Shown here piece after piece: positions 227 to 22,689 of a stretch of DNA of 24,993 bases (position 1 is its first letter; every line of letters begins with the position of its first letter). The notes beneath the pieces were generated by a model. That model saw nothing but the letters and a program-made list of their open reading frames with translations, searched no databases and was not told the origin of the DNA. Source of the DNA: a virus. The stretch lies in the IMG/VR virus record IMGVR_UViG_3300030451_001161, positions 1 through 24,993 of that record, one strand, 5' to 3'. Position numbers and translations under genes: made by a program.

Positions 227-1888
227 TTACATCCAGGTCAAATGTTTCTCTTGGTATCCCTTACCAATCACATGTGACATAAATCTTTCTAGCTCTTTAT
301 CCATGAGGTCATTCTTACGATCCCTGATCTGTTGGTCTGCATCAGCAGCCATCTGTTCGACCCAGTATGCAATAGCCATACTTAAGGCATCCAAGCGGTC
401 ATCATGTGCTAAAGCACCACGATCCTTAGTGATTCTAGTGAACTGATGGAACAACATGTACTTGGCTTGTTTTTCTGCTGCATAGTCCTTGACAGATTTG
501 TAGTCATGATCTATAATACTTTTGTTTACTATTAGTCTATGTTGGTTACATACAGGTTCTAACGTGTCTACTATACGTTTCTCCTTTTGTATATTACTTC
601 TTACTTCTTCTAGTGTAACACTATAGATCTTACTTAAGACTGGTTTTAGAAGTTCTAAGAACATTCCGTCACCAAAGTTACTCTCAATCAACACTACGTT
701 CACCTTGTTTCTCTTAGCAACTACGCTAAGGAACTCAAGGTTCTCCTTTCGGTACCCACCTTGGATACCTCCGCATTCTAGGACATAGAGGTAACCATTG
801 AGCATCTTTACTACTGCATATCCTGTTTCGTCTTTACCTCTACCTGAAGGGTCTATACTCAAGACTGATCCAGAATAAGAAATCCAATCTCCTAGTATCT
901 TTTGTGGTTTGTAGAAAGCATCACCAGGAAGTCCCACATTTGGTACATCATTGAGTTTATCTGATGAGTCATTGGACCAGATCGGTTTTTCTGGTGCTTT
1001 ATCTCTATCGAGGGACATCACCACTAAGTCCGATAGTTTCAATGGATACCTATCAGCATCACTCAAGGAGGTGTCTAGCATATACTGCATATTGAATCCT
1101 GAGCGTCCATAGGATAACTCACGTTCCAATAAGTCCTCATCATCGAACCGAAGAGGATCAGTAGGTTGTCGTACTATTGAGGGATCTTTCTCTAACTTCT
1201 CTAAGATGAATGGAGCTAGTCTATCTTCGTACTTATGGACTAGTTTCTCTGATGGATATCTCCCAGGCCATATACGTGCTTGATATCCTCGATTAGGTAG
1301 TTGTTCGTACAAGGACATCTCTGTTTGTGGAGTCCCTAAGTAGATAATCATTCCATCAGGTTTGAGGATAGCATCAAACTCCTTAACTGACTCTGAGAGT
1401 TTATCTCTCATCATCTGAGTCATAGAGTTATTCGGAACCTCTACATCATCAGCTACGATAAGGTCTGCTCTCGATCCTGCAAGTTGACCAGTGATACCTA
1501 CGCTTTTTACAGAGGGACTATGACTAGCCTTAGCTGGTCCTACATCAAAAGAGATCTTAGATTGCCTCTGGTTATCCTTAGGTATCAAATGCTGAAGGAT
1601 AGGCATCTCATGTATTAACCTCTGTGTGAATGTACTAAAGTCATCTGCTCTAATCTTAGATGCAGAGACTACGAGTACCTTTGTCTCAGGGTCATGAAGT
1701 AATCTCCAAGTAACAAAGGCACTCGTGATGTAGGACTTCCCGACTCCTCTAAATGCTTCTATGACTCCTCTCTTAGGAGCATTCTGTAAGAAGTCAGCAA
1801 TATCGTATTGCACTGGAGTAGGGTTAGGAAGGTTGAGGTGCCTCCAGCACATGAATAGGAAATTGCGGAAGTCCTTAAGCTCATTCAT
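227..1888 (-). CDS. terL: Terminase large subunit (T7 gp19-like packaging ATPase/nuclease)
   Basis: This 553-aa protein is the DNA-packaging motor and headful/concatemer nuclease that docks on the portal. The N-terminal ATPase domain has a Walker A-like EAFRGVGKS at residues 44-52 and a Walker B-like DLIVADDVE at 142-150. The C-terminal RNase H-like nuclease domain shows SIDPSGRGKDETG from 344 (Asp346), LIESNFGDG at 400-408 (Glu402) and HDDRLDAL at 495-502, the expected acidic metal ligands. Length is close to T7 gp19 (586 aa). The ATG overlaps the upstream TGA as ATGA, suggesting translational coupling. It is the last confident gene in transcription order. In T7 the small subunit is only two small genes away; here five genes intervene. 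Assignment to TerL is secure. Confidence 0.96.
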   Translation of the reverse strand: MNELKDFRNFLFMCWRHLNLPNPTPVQYDIADFLQNAPKRGVIEAFRGVGKSYITSAFVTWRLLHDPETKVLVVSASKIRADDFSTFTQRLIHEMPILQHLIPKDNQRQSKISFDVGPAKASHSPSVKSVGITGQLAGSRADLIVADDVEVPNNSMTQMMRDKLSESVKEFDAILKPDGMIIYLGTPQTEMSLYEQLPNRGYQARIWPGRYPSEKLVHKYEDRLAPFILEKLEKDPSIVRQPTDPLRFDDEDLLERELSYGRSGFNMQYMLDTSLSDADRYPLKLSDLVVMSLDRDKAPEKPIWSNDSSDKLNDVPNVGLPGDAFYKPQKILGDWISYSGSVLSIDPSGRGKDETGYAVVKMLNGYLYVLECGGIQGGYRKENLEFLSVVAKRNKVNVVLIESNFGDGMFLELLKPVLSKIYSVTLEEVRSNIQKEKRIVDTLEPVCNQHRLIVNKSIIDHDYKSVKDYAAEKQAKYMLFHQFTRITKDRGALAHDDRLDALSMAIAYWVEQMAADADQQIRDRKNDLMDKELERFMSHVIGKGYQEKHLTWM

Positions 1889-2274
1889 TTCTTCTTTTGT
1901 ATCTTTAAGTAATTAGAGAGTTTCTTTCGTGCAGCTTTAGGTTGTGGTACTACGTTACCTGTACCTCCACCCTTTCTCTTTGCCCTAGTAGATGCTGCAT
2001 ACTCAGAAGAAGACATGTTCTTGATTACCTTCGAGGGAAGATAGCGTTCACCTGTTTCCTTACTAGGCTTACCTGATTTGGTCCTCCACTTTTGCTTAGA
2101 CCATTTACTAAGTTTATTAGAACTCTTCTTACCCCCTTTGTATCCTCCACCTTTACTCTTGTAGATCTTAACTGCTAGTTGCATCGCACGAGCAGAGTGA
2201 CCACCGAGTTTTGCCTTGGCTTGAGACTTCGCACGTTCCCAGAGTCCAGGGTTTGTCTTAGTGGCAGTACTCAC
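1885..2274 (-). CDS. Small basic protein, DUF5872-like
   Basis: A 129-aa, very Lys/Arg-rich soluble protein. The stretch from about residue 38 to 95 (GGGYKGGKKSSNKLSKW, then KWRTKSGKP and ETGERYLPS, then SSSEYAASTRAKRKGGG) matches my memory of the DUF5872 family found in phages and large DNA viruses; no biochemical function is established that I know of. The charge suggests nucleic-acid binding, possibly in the virion or packaging, but this is inference. The start is GTG, overlapping the TGA of the 55-aa gene by four bases (GTGA), with AGAGGAGGA close upstream. No ATG exists before residue 31, inside the conserved part, so GTG is preferred. The stop overlaps the terL ATG. Confidence 0.8.
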   Translation of the reverse strand: MSTATKTNPGLWERAKSQAKAKLGGHSARAMQLAVKIYKSKGGGYKGGKKSSNKLSKWSKQKWRTKSGKPSKETGERYLPSKVIKNMSSSEYAASTRAKRKGGGTGNVVPQPKAARKKLSNYLKIQKKK

Positions 2275-2438
2275 ATTCCTCCTCTAAGTTCTGTTAGTTT
2301 CTTCTCTTCGCACACACAAGGATCTTGGTTACACTCAAGGCATACTTCTTCATCTACCATATTTCTATCTGTTCTCATTCCCATAGCTTGTTGATAAGAT
2401 ATACGTTGTTCTCGTTGCTTCTGTGATTCCTTTAGCAT
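2271..2438 (-). CDS. 55-aa Cys4 mini-protein (putative zinc-binding)
   Basis: A short gene reading MLKESQKQREQRISYQ... and ending KKLTELRGGM. It holds four cysteines in the pattern C33-x2-C36-x4-C41-x-C43 (CLECNQDPCVC), a typical small zinc-knuckle spacing. The N-terminal half is Gln/Arg-rich and probably helical. Its ATG lies within the upstream gene's end (ATGCTAA, 7-nt overlap) and its TGA overlaps the next gene's GTG by four bases, so it exactly fills what would otherwise be the only gap in this gene block. An in-frame AGAGGAGGA near its 3' end serves as the next ribosome binding site. I do not recognise the family. The tight overlaps at both ends are the main evidence for a real gene. 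Confidence 0.72.
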   Translation of the reverse strand: MLKESQKQREQRISYQQAMGMRTDRNMVDEEVCLECNQDPCVCEEKKLTELRGGM

Positions 2439-2704
2439 TTACAGTTCCACTTACGTAGTGCTTTGTTAATTCTTGAATCTGGATCTCTTGCAGTCTTCGC
2501 AGAGGTCAACCTACGTTTCATTCCGCACATACGACTACAGAAGGACTTTCTTCGTGCCTTTCGTTTACCTTTAGGATTCTTTTCGGTGACTGCCATCTTA
2601 ATGTTAGAACCAGTAGCACGATTGTACTTATCTACCCCTGCTTGTGTTAAGCCACCTTTACGACTTCTATGCTTACCTATCTTGAGGGATACGTTCTTAC
2701 TCAC
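2432..2704 (-). CDS. Small basic Cys-containing protein, DUF6321-like
   Basis: A 90-aa Lys/Arg-rich protein. Residues about 16-62 (KGGLTQAGVDKYNRATGSN, AVTEKNPKG, RRKSFCSRMCGMK) resemble the KGGL-x2-AG-x3-Y ... KSF-x-R-x2-G pattern that I associate with DUF6321 phage proteins; no function is known to me. Four cysteines (C56, C60, C88, C90) give C-x3-C ... C-x-C, so a metal site is possible. The C-terminal segment SAKTARDPDSRINKALRKW looks like a conserved helix. It begins immediately after the upstream stop region at 2705 and overlaps the 55-aa Cys4 gene by seven bases. Nucleic-acid binding is plausible from charge, not demonstrated. Confidence 0.72.
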   Translation of the reverse strand: MSKNVSLKIGKHRSRKGGLTQAGVDKYNRATGSNIKMAVTEKNPKGKRKARRKSFCSRMCGMKRRLTSAKTARDPDSRINKALRKWNCKC

Positions 2705-2995
2705 TTAAGACCTCTTCATTGAGTTAATGTATTGTGCTTTCTTTCTCGGAGACATCTTATGAAATCCTTTAGGCAACTCAGACATTCCTGTTTGAGTGGG
2801 TAGTGCTAGTTCAGTAGCTATCGCTGCTGCACCTCCTGCTCCCTTTGCGGTAATCTTGAGTGCCTTAAGTAACTTTTGTTTAAGAGTCTTAGATTTTTTC
2901 TTTCTCTTTTTCTTTAACTGCTTTGCTTGTTTTCGTCCTACCGCAAAGTCTCCTCCTGCTTTTGAGAGTCCTACTGAGCTACTATAGTTAGGCAT
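2705..2995 (-). CDS. Small Lys-rich hypothetical protein
   Basis: A 96-aa protein that I do not recognise. Residues 21-50 are a nearly uninterrupted Lys run pattern (KQAKQLKKKRKKKSKTLKQK), followed by a short Gly/Ala-rich, weakly hydrophobic segment (GAGGAAAIATELALP, about 52-66) and a basic C-terminus (SPRKKAQYINSMKRS). The protein could bind DNA or interact with membrane or capsid, but nothing in it is diagnostic. It sits one base after the upstream gene and abuts the next, as the third member of the block of small basic genes between TerS and TerL. Confidence 0.65.
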   Translation of the reverse strand: MPNYSSSVGLSKAGGDFAVGRKQAKQLKKKRKKKSKTLKQKLLKALKITAKGAGGAAAIATELALPTQTGMSELPKGFHKMSPRKKAQYINSMKRS

Positions 2996-2996
2996 A

Positions 2997-3302
2997 TCAG
3001 TTTCCTGCTCCCATTCGCATTGCTTGTTCCATTAAGTCATCCTCGTGAGAGATAACTTGAATCTTAAACTTCTTCTTAGGTTCTTCTTGCATAAGACCTT
3101 TCTTCATTCTCTTTGAGAGTTCTGTAGCCCCTTGTCTAGTATCAGATCCTGCTACAGTCTTACCATTGACTTTGACTAAGAACTTCTTAGGTTTTTTCTG
3201 CATCTCTCTTGTAGCTACTTCTGCACCCTTAGTAAGAAAGTCTGTTGCAGTCTCTATTAGCTTTTTACCGCCCTTGTAAGCGATCTTTAACTTTGCACTC
3301 AT
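2997..3302 (-). CDS. Small basic hypothetical protein
   Basis: A 101-aa soluble protein of unknown family. The N-terminal third is predicted helical (KLIETATDFLTKGAEVATREMQ). The middle contains a short beta-like pattern FLVKVNGKTVAGSDTRQGA, which resembles a small KOW/ubiquitin-like strand-turn-strand, and the C-terminus repeats a basic strand (KKFKIQVISHEDDLMEQAM). It is the first gene after the 65-bp gap downstream of the small terminase, so a promoter or processing site in that gap would control this block. No clear ribosome binding site precedes the ATG. Confidence 0.65.
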   Translation of the reverse strand: MSAKLKIAYKGGKKLIETATDFLTKGAEVATREMQKKPKKFLVKVNGKTVAGSDTRQGATELSKRMKKGLMQEEPKKKFKIQVISHEDDLMEQAMRMGAGN

Positions 3303-3373
3303 GGGTTTGTATAGGTTGTATTATAATCTTTTAAATACGTTGCTTGTATGAATATGCATATATCTTATCATAC
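3303..3373 (-). promoter_or_regulatory. Intergenic inverted repeat with -10-like box upstream of the small-gene block
   Basis: The gap after the small terminase holds an inverted repeat with arms gtatga (3346-3351) and tcatac (3368-3373) enclosing the perfect palindrome atatgcatat (3352-3361). Downstream in the gene direction there is a perfect TATAAT, but no convincing -35 hexamer at 16-18 bp. In this AT-rich DNA a TATAAT can occur by chance. It is one of only a few gaps over 60 bp in the window and precedes a co-directional gene block, so a phage promoter or RNA processing hairpin is plausible. Confidence 0.3.
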
Positions 3374-3586
3374 AATTTTAGATTCCTTCAAGTCCTCTTC
3401 AGTAGGAAACGGCATTGATTCCAAGAGTTGACTCAAAGCATTGTTATTGGTTGGTACTGCCGTAATCTCATTGTCCTTAAGGAACTTAGCTGCTACTGCT
3501 AGGTCTGGTGCCTTAGCTTCACCACTCTTAATTCTCTGTAGTAGCTCTTTAGCTAAGGCTTCGTGTAAGTCGTTTAGATTACTCAT
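3368..3586 (-). CDS. terS: Terminase small subunit (T7 gp18-like DNA maturase A)
   Basis: A 72-aa protein with the pattern LHEALAKELLQRIKSGEA ... DLAVAAKFLKDNEITAVP ... LSQLLESMPFPTEEDL. This is how short podophage small terminase subunits look in my memory: a helical N-terminal half followed by an LxVxxxFLKDN motif and an acidic tail. TerS recognises the concatemer and loads the large subunit for packaging. T7 gp18 is 89 aa, so the size fits. It lies downstream of the lysis genes, as in T7 (17.5 holin, 18, 18.5, 19). The start is three bases from the upstream stop. Five small genes, rather than the Rz/Rz1 pair of T7, separate it from terL. Confidence 0.75.
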   Translation of the reverse strand: MSNLNDLHEALAKELLQRIKSGEAKAPDLAVAAKFLKDNEITAVPTNNNALSQLLESMPFPTEEDLKESKIV

Positions 3587-3589
3587 ATC

Positions 3590-4210
3590 TTAAGATAGTC
3601 CTATGTTACTTGTGACATTACCTGATTTTCTCATACCTCCAACAAACGGACCTTTTACTCTAAACCTTCGTTTACCTCCTCTTTTTTTAATCCTAAGATT
3701 ACTCGAAGTACTTTTATCAGTCATAAGAACTCCTTTTTCTTCTTTAGGTTTTCTTTTTACTGACATCAACCCAAAACCTTCTGTAGCTTTACCCTCAGTA
3801 GGACCACCTTCGTAGTTAGGAAGTTTTTCCCATGTATAATTTCTTGAGTTCCATTTGTATCCAGGTCGTGAATTAGGATCAAAATCACTAGACATACGAC
3901 CTCCTCCTCTTCCTCCAGTATCTCCTCTTCCTAAACCGCTTGTAGTTTCTTCTTGTTTAGGAGCAACTGGAGCTACTTTAGGAGGTGGTTTAGCTATAAA
4001 TTTTTTAGGAGGTTTTACTTCTGTACCAGGAGGAGGACGAACATTATCATCTTGTGGAGCAACATAGTTTTTATCTACGAATAGTGTTTGACCAGTAGCT
4101 CTATTTATATGTTCTAAATTACCAGTATTTTTATTTACCTTTATTAAAAGATTACCACCCCTTACCATTTTTCTGTAGTCTTTATAAGGTAATCCATAGA
4201 ATTTTTTCAT
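3590..4210 (-). CDS. Pro-rich basic protein with C-terminal GKRRFRV motif
   Basis: A 206-aa protein of unknown family. Residues 1-56 look folded (KKFYGLPYKDYRKMVRGGN, LLIKVNKNTGNLEHINRATGQ, LFVDKNYV). Residues 58-90 are a Pro/Lys linker (RPPPGTEVKPPKK, AKPPPKVAPVAP). Residues 93-105 are Gly/Arg-rich. A NSRNYTWEKLPNYEGG segment follows, then a basic tail with LRIKKRGGKRRFRV at 172-185 and the end SNIGLS. The GKRRFRV motif recurs near the C-terminus of the protein upstream of the portal (24302-24793), suggesting a common docking partner. The ATG overlaps the endolysin TGA as ATGA. No catalytic motif is seen; a minor virion protein is possible. Confidence 0.7.
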   Translation of the reverse strand: MKKFYGLPYKDYRKMVRGGNLLIKVNKNTGNLEHINRATGQTLFVDKNYVAPQDDNVRPPPGTEVKPPKKFIAKPPPKVAPVAPKQEETTSGLGRGDTGGRGGGRMSSDFDPNSRPGYKWNSRNYTWEKLPNYEGGPTEGKATEGFGLMSVKRKPKEEKGVLMTDKSTSSNLRIKKRGGKRRFRVKGPFVGGMRKSGNVTSNIGLS

Positions 4211-4668: not shown

Positions 4669-4853
4669 CCGAGAAATTCTTTCACTGACTTAAATGTGTT
4701 TTCAGGCATTTCGTCCACTACTGCATCTATTAACTTAAGCTGATCCTCACTAAGGTTATCTTCCATAACTTTAGTTACATGTTCTTTAGCTAATGATTGT
4801 GCTTGGTCTACGACTAACGATTGAATTACATTAAGGAGTAACGCTGGTACCAT
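4665..4853 (-). CDS. Small hypothetical protein of the lysis cassette
   Basis: I place the start at the ATG at 4853, giving 62 aa (MVPALLLNVIQSLVVDQAQ ... ENTFKSVKEFLG). A longer frame opening at 4919 is possible (84 aa) but would overlap the upstream gene by 89 bases and begins with a non-conserved-looking Lys-rich stretch; the internal ATG has AAGAAGAAGAAA just upstream. The N-terminus is hydrophobic and amphipathic (PALLLNVIQSLVV) and the rest is an acidic helix pair, so peripheral membrane association is possible. It lies between the two-TM protein and the endolysin, with a 4-base overlap into the endolysin ATG. I have seen similar small proteins in marine podophages, without known function. 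Confidence 0.65.
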   Translation of the reverse strand: MVPALLLNVIQSLVVDQAQSLAKEHVTKVMEDNLSEDQLKLIDAVVDEMPENTFKSVKEFLG

Positions 4854-5169
4854 TTGTTTCTTCTTCTTTAGGTTTATCAGGTTCAGGGTTATGTGCTGGT
4901 TCGTCATGTGATACTTCAAACCAGTGTTTGCCTAACATTCCGATGATCGGTAAGAACGCACCGAATGCTAAGTTAATGAGGTCTTTACTTGACTGTGCTA
5001 ATTCATCTGGTTTGTTCACCATAGTAAACACAAGCCAACCAAAGAGACCAAAGGCAAGTAACGATATAAGAAACCTTGCCCAAAATCTTAGTTTCATCAA
5101 TTGGATGTGTGGGTCATCCTTTGGTTTTCCACCATTCTTAATAGTTGTTTTTTCTGTGACTGTTTCCAT
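4831..5169 (-). CDS. Two-TM membrane protein, putative holin
   Basis: A 112-aa protein with two hydrophobic segments: FLISLLAFGLFGWLVFTMV at about residues 33-51 and LINLAFGAFLPIIGMLG at about 64-80. Before the first segment lies a basic patch (KLRFWAR) and after the second a charged, Pro/Glu-rich tail (HDEPAHNPEPDKPKEEE). This size, topology and position directly upstream of the endolysin fit a class II holin that permeabilises the inner membrane. The family itself I only recognise loosely. The ATG directly follows the upstream TAG (TAGATG). The 106-aa one-TM protein upstream is an alternative holin. Confidence 0.6.
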   Translation of the reverse strand: METVTEKTTIKNGGKPKDDPHIQLMKLRFWARFLISLLAFGLFGWLVFTMVNKPDELAQSSKDLINLAFGAFLPIIGMLGKHWFEVSHDEPAHNPEPDKPKEEETNGTSVTP

Positions 5170-5421
5170 CTACTTAGTTTTTTTAAATATTTTTCTATCT
5201 CTATTTTTTAATCTTGCATATAGATCTGCTTGATGACCTTGCCTTTGTTCTTTTAAATTAGTTGAGAACTCTTTATCAGTTATATCATTTAAAAGTTTTC
5301 TTTCTTTTTTATAATTTCTTTTTTTCTTAGAGAGTAGTTTATCTATTCGTTTTTTTATTTTAAGATCTGACTTTCTCCAAAGTAAAGGTGCTCTTCTCCG
5401 TGTAGATTTGTGTCTAATCAC
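5170..5421 (-). CDS. Small Lys/Arg-rich hypothetical protein
   Basis: An 83-aa highly basic protein (MIRHKSTRRRAPLLWRKSD, KKRIDKLLSKKKRNYKKERK, then NLKEQRQGHQADLYARLKN). No membrane segment and no signal peptide are visible; most of it is predicted helix. The start is GTG overlapping the upstream stop as GTGA, and no other start codon is available in the first 80 codons. It sits between the two membrane proteins of the lysis cassette, but its content gives no reason to call it a lysis protein. Family unknown. Confidence 0.6.
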   Translation of the reverse strand: MIRHKSTRRRAPLLWRKSDLKIKKRIDKLLSKKKRNYKKERKLLNDITDKEFSTNLKEQRQGHQADLYARLKNRDRKIFKKTK

Positions 5422-5738
5422 TTTCGTGTAATCTCTTTGATTGCTTGTGTGTTAGCATCCAATGCTAGTTTAATCTGAAGAATAGCATCTGAAGACTTTT
5501 CAATCATGTCTAAGAGTCTACTATCGTGCTCTTCGTCTTTTTTCCAGAACTCTTCTCGTTCCTTTTTTGCTAGTTCACTTTGGTATCTAATGAACCAAAA
5601 TGCAGCTATGATGACACAGGCAGGTATGCCTAAGTCCATAACCATCTGATATAATGTACTTACTTCTGGCATAACTTCTGTTGCTTGTGTTGGATAGTTA
5701 TAGTATTGATCCGCTGGATTAGGATGATGTCCACTCAT
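5418..5738 (-). CDS. Single-TM coiled-coil protein, holin-like
   Basis: A 106-aa protein with an N-terminal polar region, one membrane segment (LGIPACVIIAAFWFI, about residues 36-50) and then a charged amphipathic helix (SELAKKEREEFWKKDEEHD ... IEKSSDAILQIKLALDA). This layout recalls BhlA/UviB-type holin-like proteins, with the charged C-terminal helix in the cytosol as expected from the positive residues after the membrane segment. It could also be an inner-membrane spanin-like protein, though no partner lipoprotein is seen. It is the first membrane protein of the lysis cassette. Its ATG lies three bases after the stop of a 20-codon micro-ORF whose start resembles its own. Confidence 0.6.
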   Translation of the reverse strand: MSGHHPNPADQYYNYPTQATEVMPEVSTLYQMVMDLGIPACVIIAAFWFIRYQSELAKKEREEFWKKDEEHDSRLLDMIEKSSDAILQIKLALDANTQAIKEITRK

Positions 5739-19131: not shown

Positions 19132-19767
19132 TTATGATGATGTTTCGGTAAGTGTATTGGTTATATAATGCTCACTATGAATGTTTCTATCTAATGGAGC
19201 AAAGGTGTCGTAGTTATCAAAGATATTAAAGTCAGCAGTCTCTGCTTGATAATCTTGTAGTTCGATAAATGCCTGTTGTTCATCCTGCATTTGAAACCCG
19301 TGTATATTAGGGGAACTTAAAACTCTATCTTGAAAGATACGTGCAGAACGAATAGTAATGTATCTTCTAGCTACTTCAGGTATATCAGCAAAATCTAAAA
19401 GAATAACTGCATCAACTACTATATCATCAGAAAATACATAACTATTAGATATTCTATCATATAATTTACGTCCTCTTTCAACTATATCTTTTTTAGAAGA
19501 TCTTAATAGATTTCTAGTATCTACTCTTATATAATTATTAGGTAGTTCTATATGATTGTTAGATACGTTTCTAGTTAGTTTAATTTTTAAATCTGTATTA
19601 AATATCCAACCCTTACTTTGAGTTTCACGATTAACACTTTCTAGAATAGTTTCGGCTAACTCAGCATCTTCTAATCCTGATGTAAGAGAGTTAACTGGTG
19701 CTTCACCAATACTACTGAGCATTACGTTAACTGCATCTAATCTACTGGTGGGTTGTAATATAGCCAT
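19132..19767 (-). CDS. Tail tubular protein A / adaptor (T7 gp11-like)
   Basis: A 211-aa protein that forms the dodecameric adaptor ring between portal and nozzle. The N-terminus AILQPTSRLDAVNVMLSSIG followed by EAPVNSL is the well-known gp11 opening, and GWIFNTD, ARRYITIRSARIFQDR and the Gln/Glu helix near residues 160-175 also fit the family. T7 gp11 is 196 aa. The start shares one base with the stop of the small Lys-rich gene upstream (TAATG) and the stop lies one base before the nozzle ATG. Confidence 0.95.
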   Translation of the reverse strand: MAILQPTSRLDAVNVMLSSIGEAPVNSLTSGLEDAELAETILESVNRETQSKGWIFNTDLKIKLTRNVSNNHIELPNNYIRVDTRNLLRSSKKDIVERGRKLYDRISNSYVFSDDIVVDAVILLDFADIPEVARRYITIRSARIFQDRVLSSPNIHGFQMQDEQQAFIELQDYQAETADFNIFDNYDTFAPLDRNIHSEHYITNTLTETSS

Positions 19768-19973
19768 TATGCGTACTTCTTACTTTTCTGTGATTTTTTT
19801 CTTTTTTTATACATCTTCTTAGCCTCCCTATATTTCTTTTTTTGTTCAGGAGTTAAGTAATCTTCTATCTCAGGGTTAAGCATCCACTTAGGCATCCCCT
19901 TGAGTTGCTTCTTTTTCTTCCCTTCAAAGTCAGGCTCATCAGGGATTTTCATTTGTTTTAGTATATTATTCAT
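19767..19973 (-). CDS. Small Lys-rich protein between capsid and adaptor genes
   Basis: A 68-aa protein (MNNILKQMKIPDEPDFEG ... WMLNPEIEDYLTPEQKKKYR ... KKYA) with about a third lysine. The middle has a short helix-forming EIEDYLTPEQKKKYREAKKM. I do not recognise the family; small basic genes at this place occur in other marine T7-like phages. Its ATG lies just beyond the capsid terminator hairpin and has no clear ribosome binding site; an internal Met at residue 8 is an alternative start. The stop overlaps the adaptor start, which supports expression as the leader gene of the tail operon. Confidence 0.65.
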   Translation of the reverse strand: MNNILKQMKIPDEPDFEGKKKKQLKGMPKWMLNPEIEDYLTPEQKKKYREAKKMYKKRKKSQKSKKYA

Positions 19974-22236: not shown

Positions 22237-22689
22237 TTATTTTTTACTTTTTGTTTTTGATTTACTCTTACTTTTACCTTTACCAAAGTCACCAGTTTTA
22301 ACTCGTATTTCTCTATACGCTTTACCCATATCTTGATTTGGACCTACTTTTTCTAATTTATCTAACTCATCTTGACGTTGAGTTGTTTTTCTTTCTCCAT
22401 CTAAACTAAAAACAAAACTATCTTTTCCTGCTCTTCTAGCAGCCATAAATTCTTTTTTAAATTGTTTAGCATATTCAGGTGATCCTTTTTTTGGTTTACC
22501 TGCTTGTACCTTTACAATTTTTTCTCTTTTAGGTGTCTTTGCTGCCTCTTGTACACGTTTATTAATGTTTTTAAGAGACATAAAGTCTTTAAATTTGCTA
22601 AGTAAAGAATCTTTAGTATTGGTTTCACTTAGTGTTTTCATGGGAGGTCTTCCTCTTTTACTCCCATACGTACCTTTACCTTGTGGCAT
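22237..22689 (-). CDS. Basic protein combining KGTYGSKRGRPP and AARRAGK motifs
   Basis: A 150-aa Lys-rich soluble protein between portal and scaffold. The N-terminus MPQGKGTYGSKRGRPP matches a short motif that I recall at the ends of many small phage proteins. Residues 77-105 (FKKEFMAARRAGKDSFVF ... GERKTTQR) match another recurrent marine-phage pattern, F-x-x-AR-x-AGK-x-x-F-x-(W/F)-x-G-x-x-x-T. The C-terminus is a KSKSKTKSKK tail. Function is unknown; the position inside the head operon suggests a minor virion or assembly factor. Its start shares one base with the portal stop (TAATG). Confidence 0.75.
   Translation of the reverse strand: MPQGKGTYGSKRGRPPMKTLSETNTKDSLLSKFKDFMSLKNINKRVQEAAKTPKREKIVKVQAGKPKKGSPEYAKQFKKEFMAARRAGKDSFVFSLDGERKTTQRQDELDKLEKVGPNQDMGKAYREIRVKTGDFGKGKSKSKSKTKSKK

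Follow-up and report, generated by a model that had tools for sequence, protein, structure and literature searches.

Small, mostly basic genes between the terminase genes of a marine T7-like phage

What is the role of small genes lodged between the two genes of the terminase? In T7 this slot, between the genes of the small and large terminase subunits (TerS and TerL), is taken by genes 18.5/18.7 (Rz/Rz1). The DNA analysed here is a complete IMG/VR virus record (IMGVR_UViG_3300030451_001161; a 25-kb fragment of 24,993 bases, hereafter the window), and its identical slot holds five small genes, named A to E, which unlike the T7 genes match no spanin family. We find that the five are real genes under purifying selection, that the slot is a hot spot and that the block is not a single functional unit. 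Moreover, we tentatively favour a reading in which two of them, the DUF6321 protein (C) and the DUF5872-like protein (E), are small basic accessory proteins that may be co-produced with the terminase and enter the head in association with DNA.

Layout and constraint of the block

Profile searches identified a T7-like, marine phage with head-tail adaptor, scaffold, capsid, tail proteins, endolysin, TerS and TerL. Between the last two, an initial annotation made from the sequence had read five co-directional genes of 101, 96, 90, 55 and 129 amino acids (aa) that abut or overlap by 4-7 bases, and all were located as it described, on the minus strand. They are given here with their flanks and with the ratio of non-synonymous to synonymous divergence (dN/dS) against close relatives.

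227..1888, minus strand: terminase large subunit (TerL), T7 type (phrog_38, E 4e-120)
1885..2274, minus strand: gene E, 129 aa, basic, two-domain, DUF5872-like/phrog_14910 (profile matches; dN/dS 0.03-0.12)
2271..2438, minus strand: gene D, 55 aa, acidic, probable zinc knuckle CxxCx4CxC, middle part variable (alignment; dN/dS mostly about 0.1-0.3)
2432..2704, minus strand: gene C, 90 aa, DUF6321, predicted compact and all-helical, the block's most conserved member (PF19846, E 4e-20; dN/dS 0.02-0.05)
2705..2995, minus strand: gene B, 96 aa, basic, clade-specific, N-terminus differs among relatives (dN/dS 0.04-0.27)
2997..3302, minus strand: gene A, 101 aa, basic, clade-specific (dN/dS 0.22-0.49)
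3303..3367, minus strand: spacer of 65 bp between TerS and gene A, kept in six relatives and ending ...ATACAACCTATACAAACC[C/T]ATG in most
3368..3586, minus strand: terminase small subunit (TerS) (PF11123, E 2e-18)

Downstream of the spacer, 1 bp separates A from B and B abuts C (0 bp); C and D overlap by 7 bp, D and E by 4 bp, and E overlaps the start of TerL by 4 bp. Same-strand open reading frames (ORFs) of at least 50 aa cover 100% of positions 1885-3302 (1,418 bp); in 2,000 shuffles this coverage averaged 9% and never exceeded 57%. Four of the five had been described as strongly Lys/Arg-rich, and this holds: Lys plus Arg (K+R) content and isoelectric point (pI) are 23%/10.0 for A, 25%/10.9 for B, 31%/11.4 for C and 27%/10.9 for E, all basic, whereas D (16%/5.0) is acidic. 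The other intergenic sites tested showed no recognisable copy of the spacer, and no shared promoter-like motif was recognised upstream of gene A.

The initial annotation had named absence of the block in close relatives, with decayed frames, as a finding that would count against it. Instead, the block is present whole or mostly, with intact frames, in IMG/VR relatives, and the dN/dS values point to purifying selection on all five genes. For comparison, TerL gives 0.04-0.08 over long alignments. In a distant clade (L031-L033), dN was 0.03 for C vs 0.27 for TerL, with synonymous sites close to saturation, and the constraint on C is thus at least that on TerL. A very recent transfer was considered for the 97-98% identity of C in L031-L034 and rejected: because synonymous sites are near saturation, the near-identity reflects constraint. 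Genes A, B and D gave zero matches in 50,697 phage records. In some relatives gene A is missing or another basic protein stands in its place, and A, D and above all the gene upstream of TerS are fast-evolving.

One further observation concerns gene B. A 150-aa basic gene in the scaffold-portal/adaptor interval (22237-22689) starts MPQGKGTYGSKRGRPP, nearly equal to the N-terminus of gene B homologues in L010, L011 and L015 (MPQGPGTYGSQVGRPP; RQV in L015). Beyond the N-terminus it is unlike those homologues, and the N-terminal motif is common in IMG/VR.

DUF6321 and DUF5872-like proteins in other phages

Two members of the block had been likened to DUF6321 and DUF5872. The first assignment stands: gene C matches DUF6321 (PF19846) at 72.6 bits vs a cut-off of 28.5, over profile positions 1-72 of 72, and carries the residues conserved in an alignment of 59-64 members, an RR.SFC.RM.GM core and a terminal W.C. 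Its AlphaFold model is a confident helical fold (predicted local distance difference test score, pLDDT, 88.6; predicted template modelling score, pTM, 0.72). A Cys4 zinc finger in C was rejected, only C56 and C88 being conserved family-wide. The Cys4 reading survives for the second protein to which it had been given, gene D, whose CxxCx4CxC is invariant in 9/9 homologues and which is by this pattern a probable zinc knuckle with putative metal binding.

At least 555 phage records contain DUF6321, most of them from marine cyanophages; essentially no literature was found on it or on DUF5872. In a non-random sample of annotated phage lineages, DUF6321 lay in the late module in 9/9, an outcome with a chance of roughly 0.5-2% when late genes account for 55-65% of the genome. 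Its position within that module varies: between scaffold and capsid genes (HTVC031P), between capsid and tail tube genes (P-SCSP1), downstream of the capsid gene (P-SCSP1d), adjoining it (HTVC115P), near TerS (P-GSP1), among holin and tail genes (MinM2), or together with the endolysin gene and further small genes (Lederberg, HTVC035P). Pelagibacter phage Lederberg (EXVC029P) and Hodr have both DUF6321 and DUF5872-like genes in free-standing form, and Prochlorococcus phage P-SCSP1u has such a DUF6321 gene; HTVC035P also carries free-standing copies. The window's 68-aa Lys-rich gene between capsid and tail-tube genes (19767-19973), which matched no family, sits in the slot that DUF6321 has in P-SCSP1. 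We also considered phrog_7595 as a remote DUF6321 homologue and rejected it, just a 14-aa motif being in common (73% probability).

In T4-like cyanophages the carrier of DUF6321 is T4-GC119 (e.g. SSM1_115, PHM1_110), encoded between gp16 (TerS) and gp17 (TerL). Among 45 T4-like cyanophage contigs, the carrier had TerS upstream and TerL downstream in 26, one of them on one side only in 17 and neither in 2. Synechococcus phage S-CREM2 has the order TerS (gp135)-gp136-gp137-TerL, and the C-terminal domain of gp137 (490 aa), at residues 415-488, is DUF6321 (40.8 bits). Mass spectrometry of CsCl-purified S-CREM2 virions found 8 unique peptides of ORF136 and 4 of ORF137 (4.1% coverage), and lists neither TerS nor TerL (PMC10665884 Table 3). 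Gene C and gp137 share DUF6321, a position between the terminase genes and a late module, and gp137 is virion-associated; the myovirus proteins, however, are 230-990 aa long with DUF6321 usually as a C-terminal domain, whereas the window has a free-standing protein of 90 aa in a T7-like phage. The label 'structural protein T4 GC0119' in S-E7 is annotation only.

The T4-like carriers (L102:1697-4678, L103:2240-4234, L125:1545-3338) read as strings of short recurring motifs, namely DUF6321, DUF5661, CWxGYxxxGxKxKxGxxVPNC, DNPxGFSQxAHC and a DUF5872 N-like motif, several of which were also found as separate small genes in other phages. The proteins of L110:4912-5541 and S-CREM2 gp136 (L393:4014-4727) begin MISFKDFLDEA and MQTFSMFFSEDA, starts that may resemble the capsid-targeting start of T4 internal proteins.

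The DUF5872 assignment of gene E fared less well. E aligns to positions 2-90 of the 116-position DUF5872 profile (PF19197) with 25.5 bits, below the cut-off of 27.5, and by that score is a relative or outlier of the family, not a member. Its C-terminal domain gives a clean match to phrog_14910 (E 7.5e-22; profile 4-78 of 80). There are 547 relatives of E in IMG/VR; E and most of these are two-domain proteins, and the AlphaFold model of E is of moderate confidence (pLDDT 74.8, pTM 0.54). The halves are adjacent separate genes in Lederberg and HTVC035P (with which L001:5592-6019 is listed) and separate genes 1.8 kb apart in HMO-2011 (L004:3071-3190 and 4959-5183). Therefore, E is a two-module protein. 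Within the window, solely the C-terminus of E has a poly-lysine 'LKIKKK' tail, a feature also present in some gap proteins of relatives.

Neighbours of E were tallied within 3 kb across 28 sequence clusters. DUF6321 was near E in 13/28, phrog_7595 in 10/28 and both in 0 (hypergeometric P = 2e-4), and at these 28 loci the two partners of the 129-aa family exclude each other. In seven clusters E also had a neighbour from an HNH-related family (hhalign 96%), and the named genes nearby were of head/packaging, connector, lysis or chaperonin function. Proteins that fuse the E N-domain to DUF6321 are real, rare (3/139 ORFs by hidden Markov model) and not a main argument here.

The TerS-TerL slot in relatives

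Gene order was compared across 84 relatives with the same TerL family and both terminase genes visible. The gap between TerS and TerL ranges from 20 bp to 1.9 kb, with a median of 368 bp, and exceeds 1 kb in 22; in cultured relatives such as CRP-125 the two genes are adjacent. The gap is thus a hypervariable slot in this T7-like TerL family. Beyond the clade, C (90 aa) and E (129 aa) alone recur while the other three vary by lineage, and therefore the block is not a single functional unit. L010 and L313 are without both C and E.

The contents of the slot are biased. Gap ORFs contain 25% K+R vs 12% in nearby small ORFs (P = 1e-7), and when counted one per family, 13/25 gap ORFs have a pI above 9.5 vs 26% of others (P = 0.009). 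The basic ones come from unrelated families, among them small HNH_3-like proteins, phrog_7595, a 42-aa family, DUF6321 and E. The gp16-gp17 interval of T4-like cyanophages has been described as a hypervariable ('hyperplastic') hot-spot region (PMC3037559, PMC4928673). The two sites are alike as insertion hot spots between terminase genes; that of the window differs in lying in a T7-like TerL family and in its bias to small basic proteins.

Some gap proteins of relatives read as IscU-like, IscA-like and oxygenase-like (L315:3234-3605, L329:534-893, L381:2675-3148), and on this reading are possible auxiliary metabolic cargo. In the window, the 206-aa basic gene directly upstream of TerS (3590-4210) has a dN/dS of 0.5-0.8 between otherwise near-identical phages. 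Upstream of the endolysin, 4831-5169 and 5418-5738 encode small proteins with hydrophobic segments, a candidate holin and spanin; 4831-5169 had no PHROG match.

Possible roles of the block

If C and E are DNA-associated head proteins, the block would be a late-expressed accessory cassette inside the terminase operon, its translation probably coupled to that of TerL through the 4-7-bp overlaps. C and E would be carried into the capsid during genome packaging, where they may help to neutralise or arrange the DNA, or be delivered along with it; the hypervariable slot may have gained A, B and D as lineage-specific additions. The initial annotation had offered roles as virion proteins, packaging cofactors or takeover proteins. 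The virion option is favoured for the DUF6321 member because of its late-module placement in unrelated phages, here in a head/packaging position between TerS and TerL, and because a DUF6321 carrier is present in S-CREM2 virions. The packaging-cofactor option stays alive because HNH-like proteins occupy the same slot in relatives; nothing found supports early takeover. A function of C and E in virions or in packaging is probable.

Several points weigh against a place in the head. The S-CREM2 proteome is the sole experimental evidence found; it concerns a fused homologue in one phage, and the ORF137 peptides may lie outside the DUF6321 domain. We found no virion proteome covering a free-standing DUF6321 or any DUF5872-like protein, and a text search of the cryo-electron microscopy paper on P-SCSP1u (closely related to P-SCSP1d) found no mention of gp14, gp15 or hypothetical proteins. 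The DNA binding proposed for C and E is read from their charge, and neither predicted fold matches a structure in the PDB. Moreover, the S-SSM7 carrier is not between the terminase genes, and a specific rule of proximity between E and TerL was rejected, E lying near TerL no oftener than contig size predicts (6/19 seen vs 5.9 expected).

The main rival is that the basic proteins are cofactors of the packaging motor, working with TerS and TerL in recognising or cutting concatemer ends or in bridging DNA and motor, and not staying in the virion. HNH proteins of phage packaging machines, whose role this would resemble, are encoded next to terminase genes. They have been described as facilitators of the packaging reaction (review PMC9611059). 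In relatives, small HNH_3-like basic proteins fill this slot at 16 loci or are encoded immediately upstream of TerS. The gap of L350 contains E, C and an HNH gene side by side (E-C-HNH), in L381 the order is C-TerS-E-TerL, and the overlap with TerL would suit such a role. However, none of the window's five proteins is HNH-like, A-E having no HNH family match with a useful E-value and the profiles of E and of the small HNH family, when compared, giving a negative result. S-CREM2 virions hold both gap proteins without TerS or TerL, and DUF6321 and E are often distant from terminase genes in other phages. We consider motor cofactors unlikely, and assorted cargo of a hot spot slightly more so. Under the latter, the genes would be morons with roles in host interaction, defence/counter-defence or metabolism that merely use late transcription. 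This explains the variable members of the block, is in keeping with the wide range of gap lengths and unrelated contents, including the IscU-like, IscA-like and oxygenase-like readings, has a published precedent in the cyanophage gp16-gp17 hot spot (PMC3037559, PMC4928673), and fits the fast evolution of A, of D and, most markedly, of the gene upstream of TerS. On the other hand, C and E are constrained like TerL and recur in late head/lysis modules, at several positions and also outside the hot spot, in unrelated phages, and the enrichment of the gap in basic proteins is not that of random cargo. Lastly, RNA- or ribosome-binding regulators of late translation or transcription seem very improbable: the extreme constraint on C could reflect a conserved cellular machine as its partner, and the high K+R content would agree, but profile searches of the block proteins gave no RNA-binding family match and a DUF6321 carrier was detected in virions.

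The head-protein, motor-cofactor and hot-spot readings can each be partly true. A broader proposal, which we regard as doubtful, is that three families, DUF6321, DUF5872-like and phrog_7595, make up a so far unrecognised set of interchangeable virion proteins, small, basic and nucleoid-like, in tailed phages of aquatic habitats, and that the DUF5872-like protein pairs with either DUF6321 or phrog_7595. The set would move along with packaging/head genes among phages that are unrelated (T7-like, T4-like and others) and be packaged with the genome. The link to virions and to the terminase slot makes DUF6321, anonymous and very conserved, a testable family. Should the conserved pair prove to be packaged along with the DNA, many aquatic tailed phages would carry small head proteins that associate with DNA and fall outside the internal-protein systems recognised so far.

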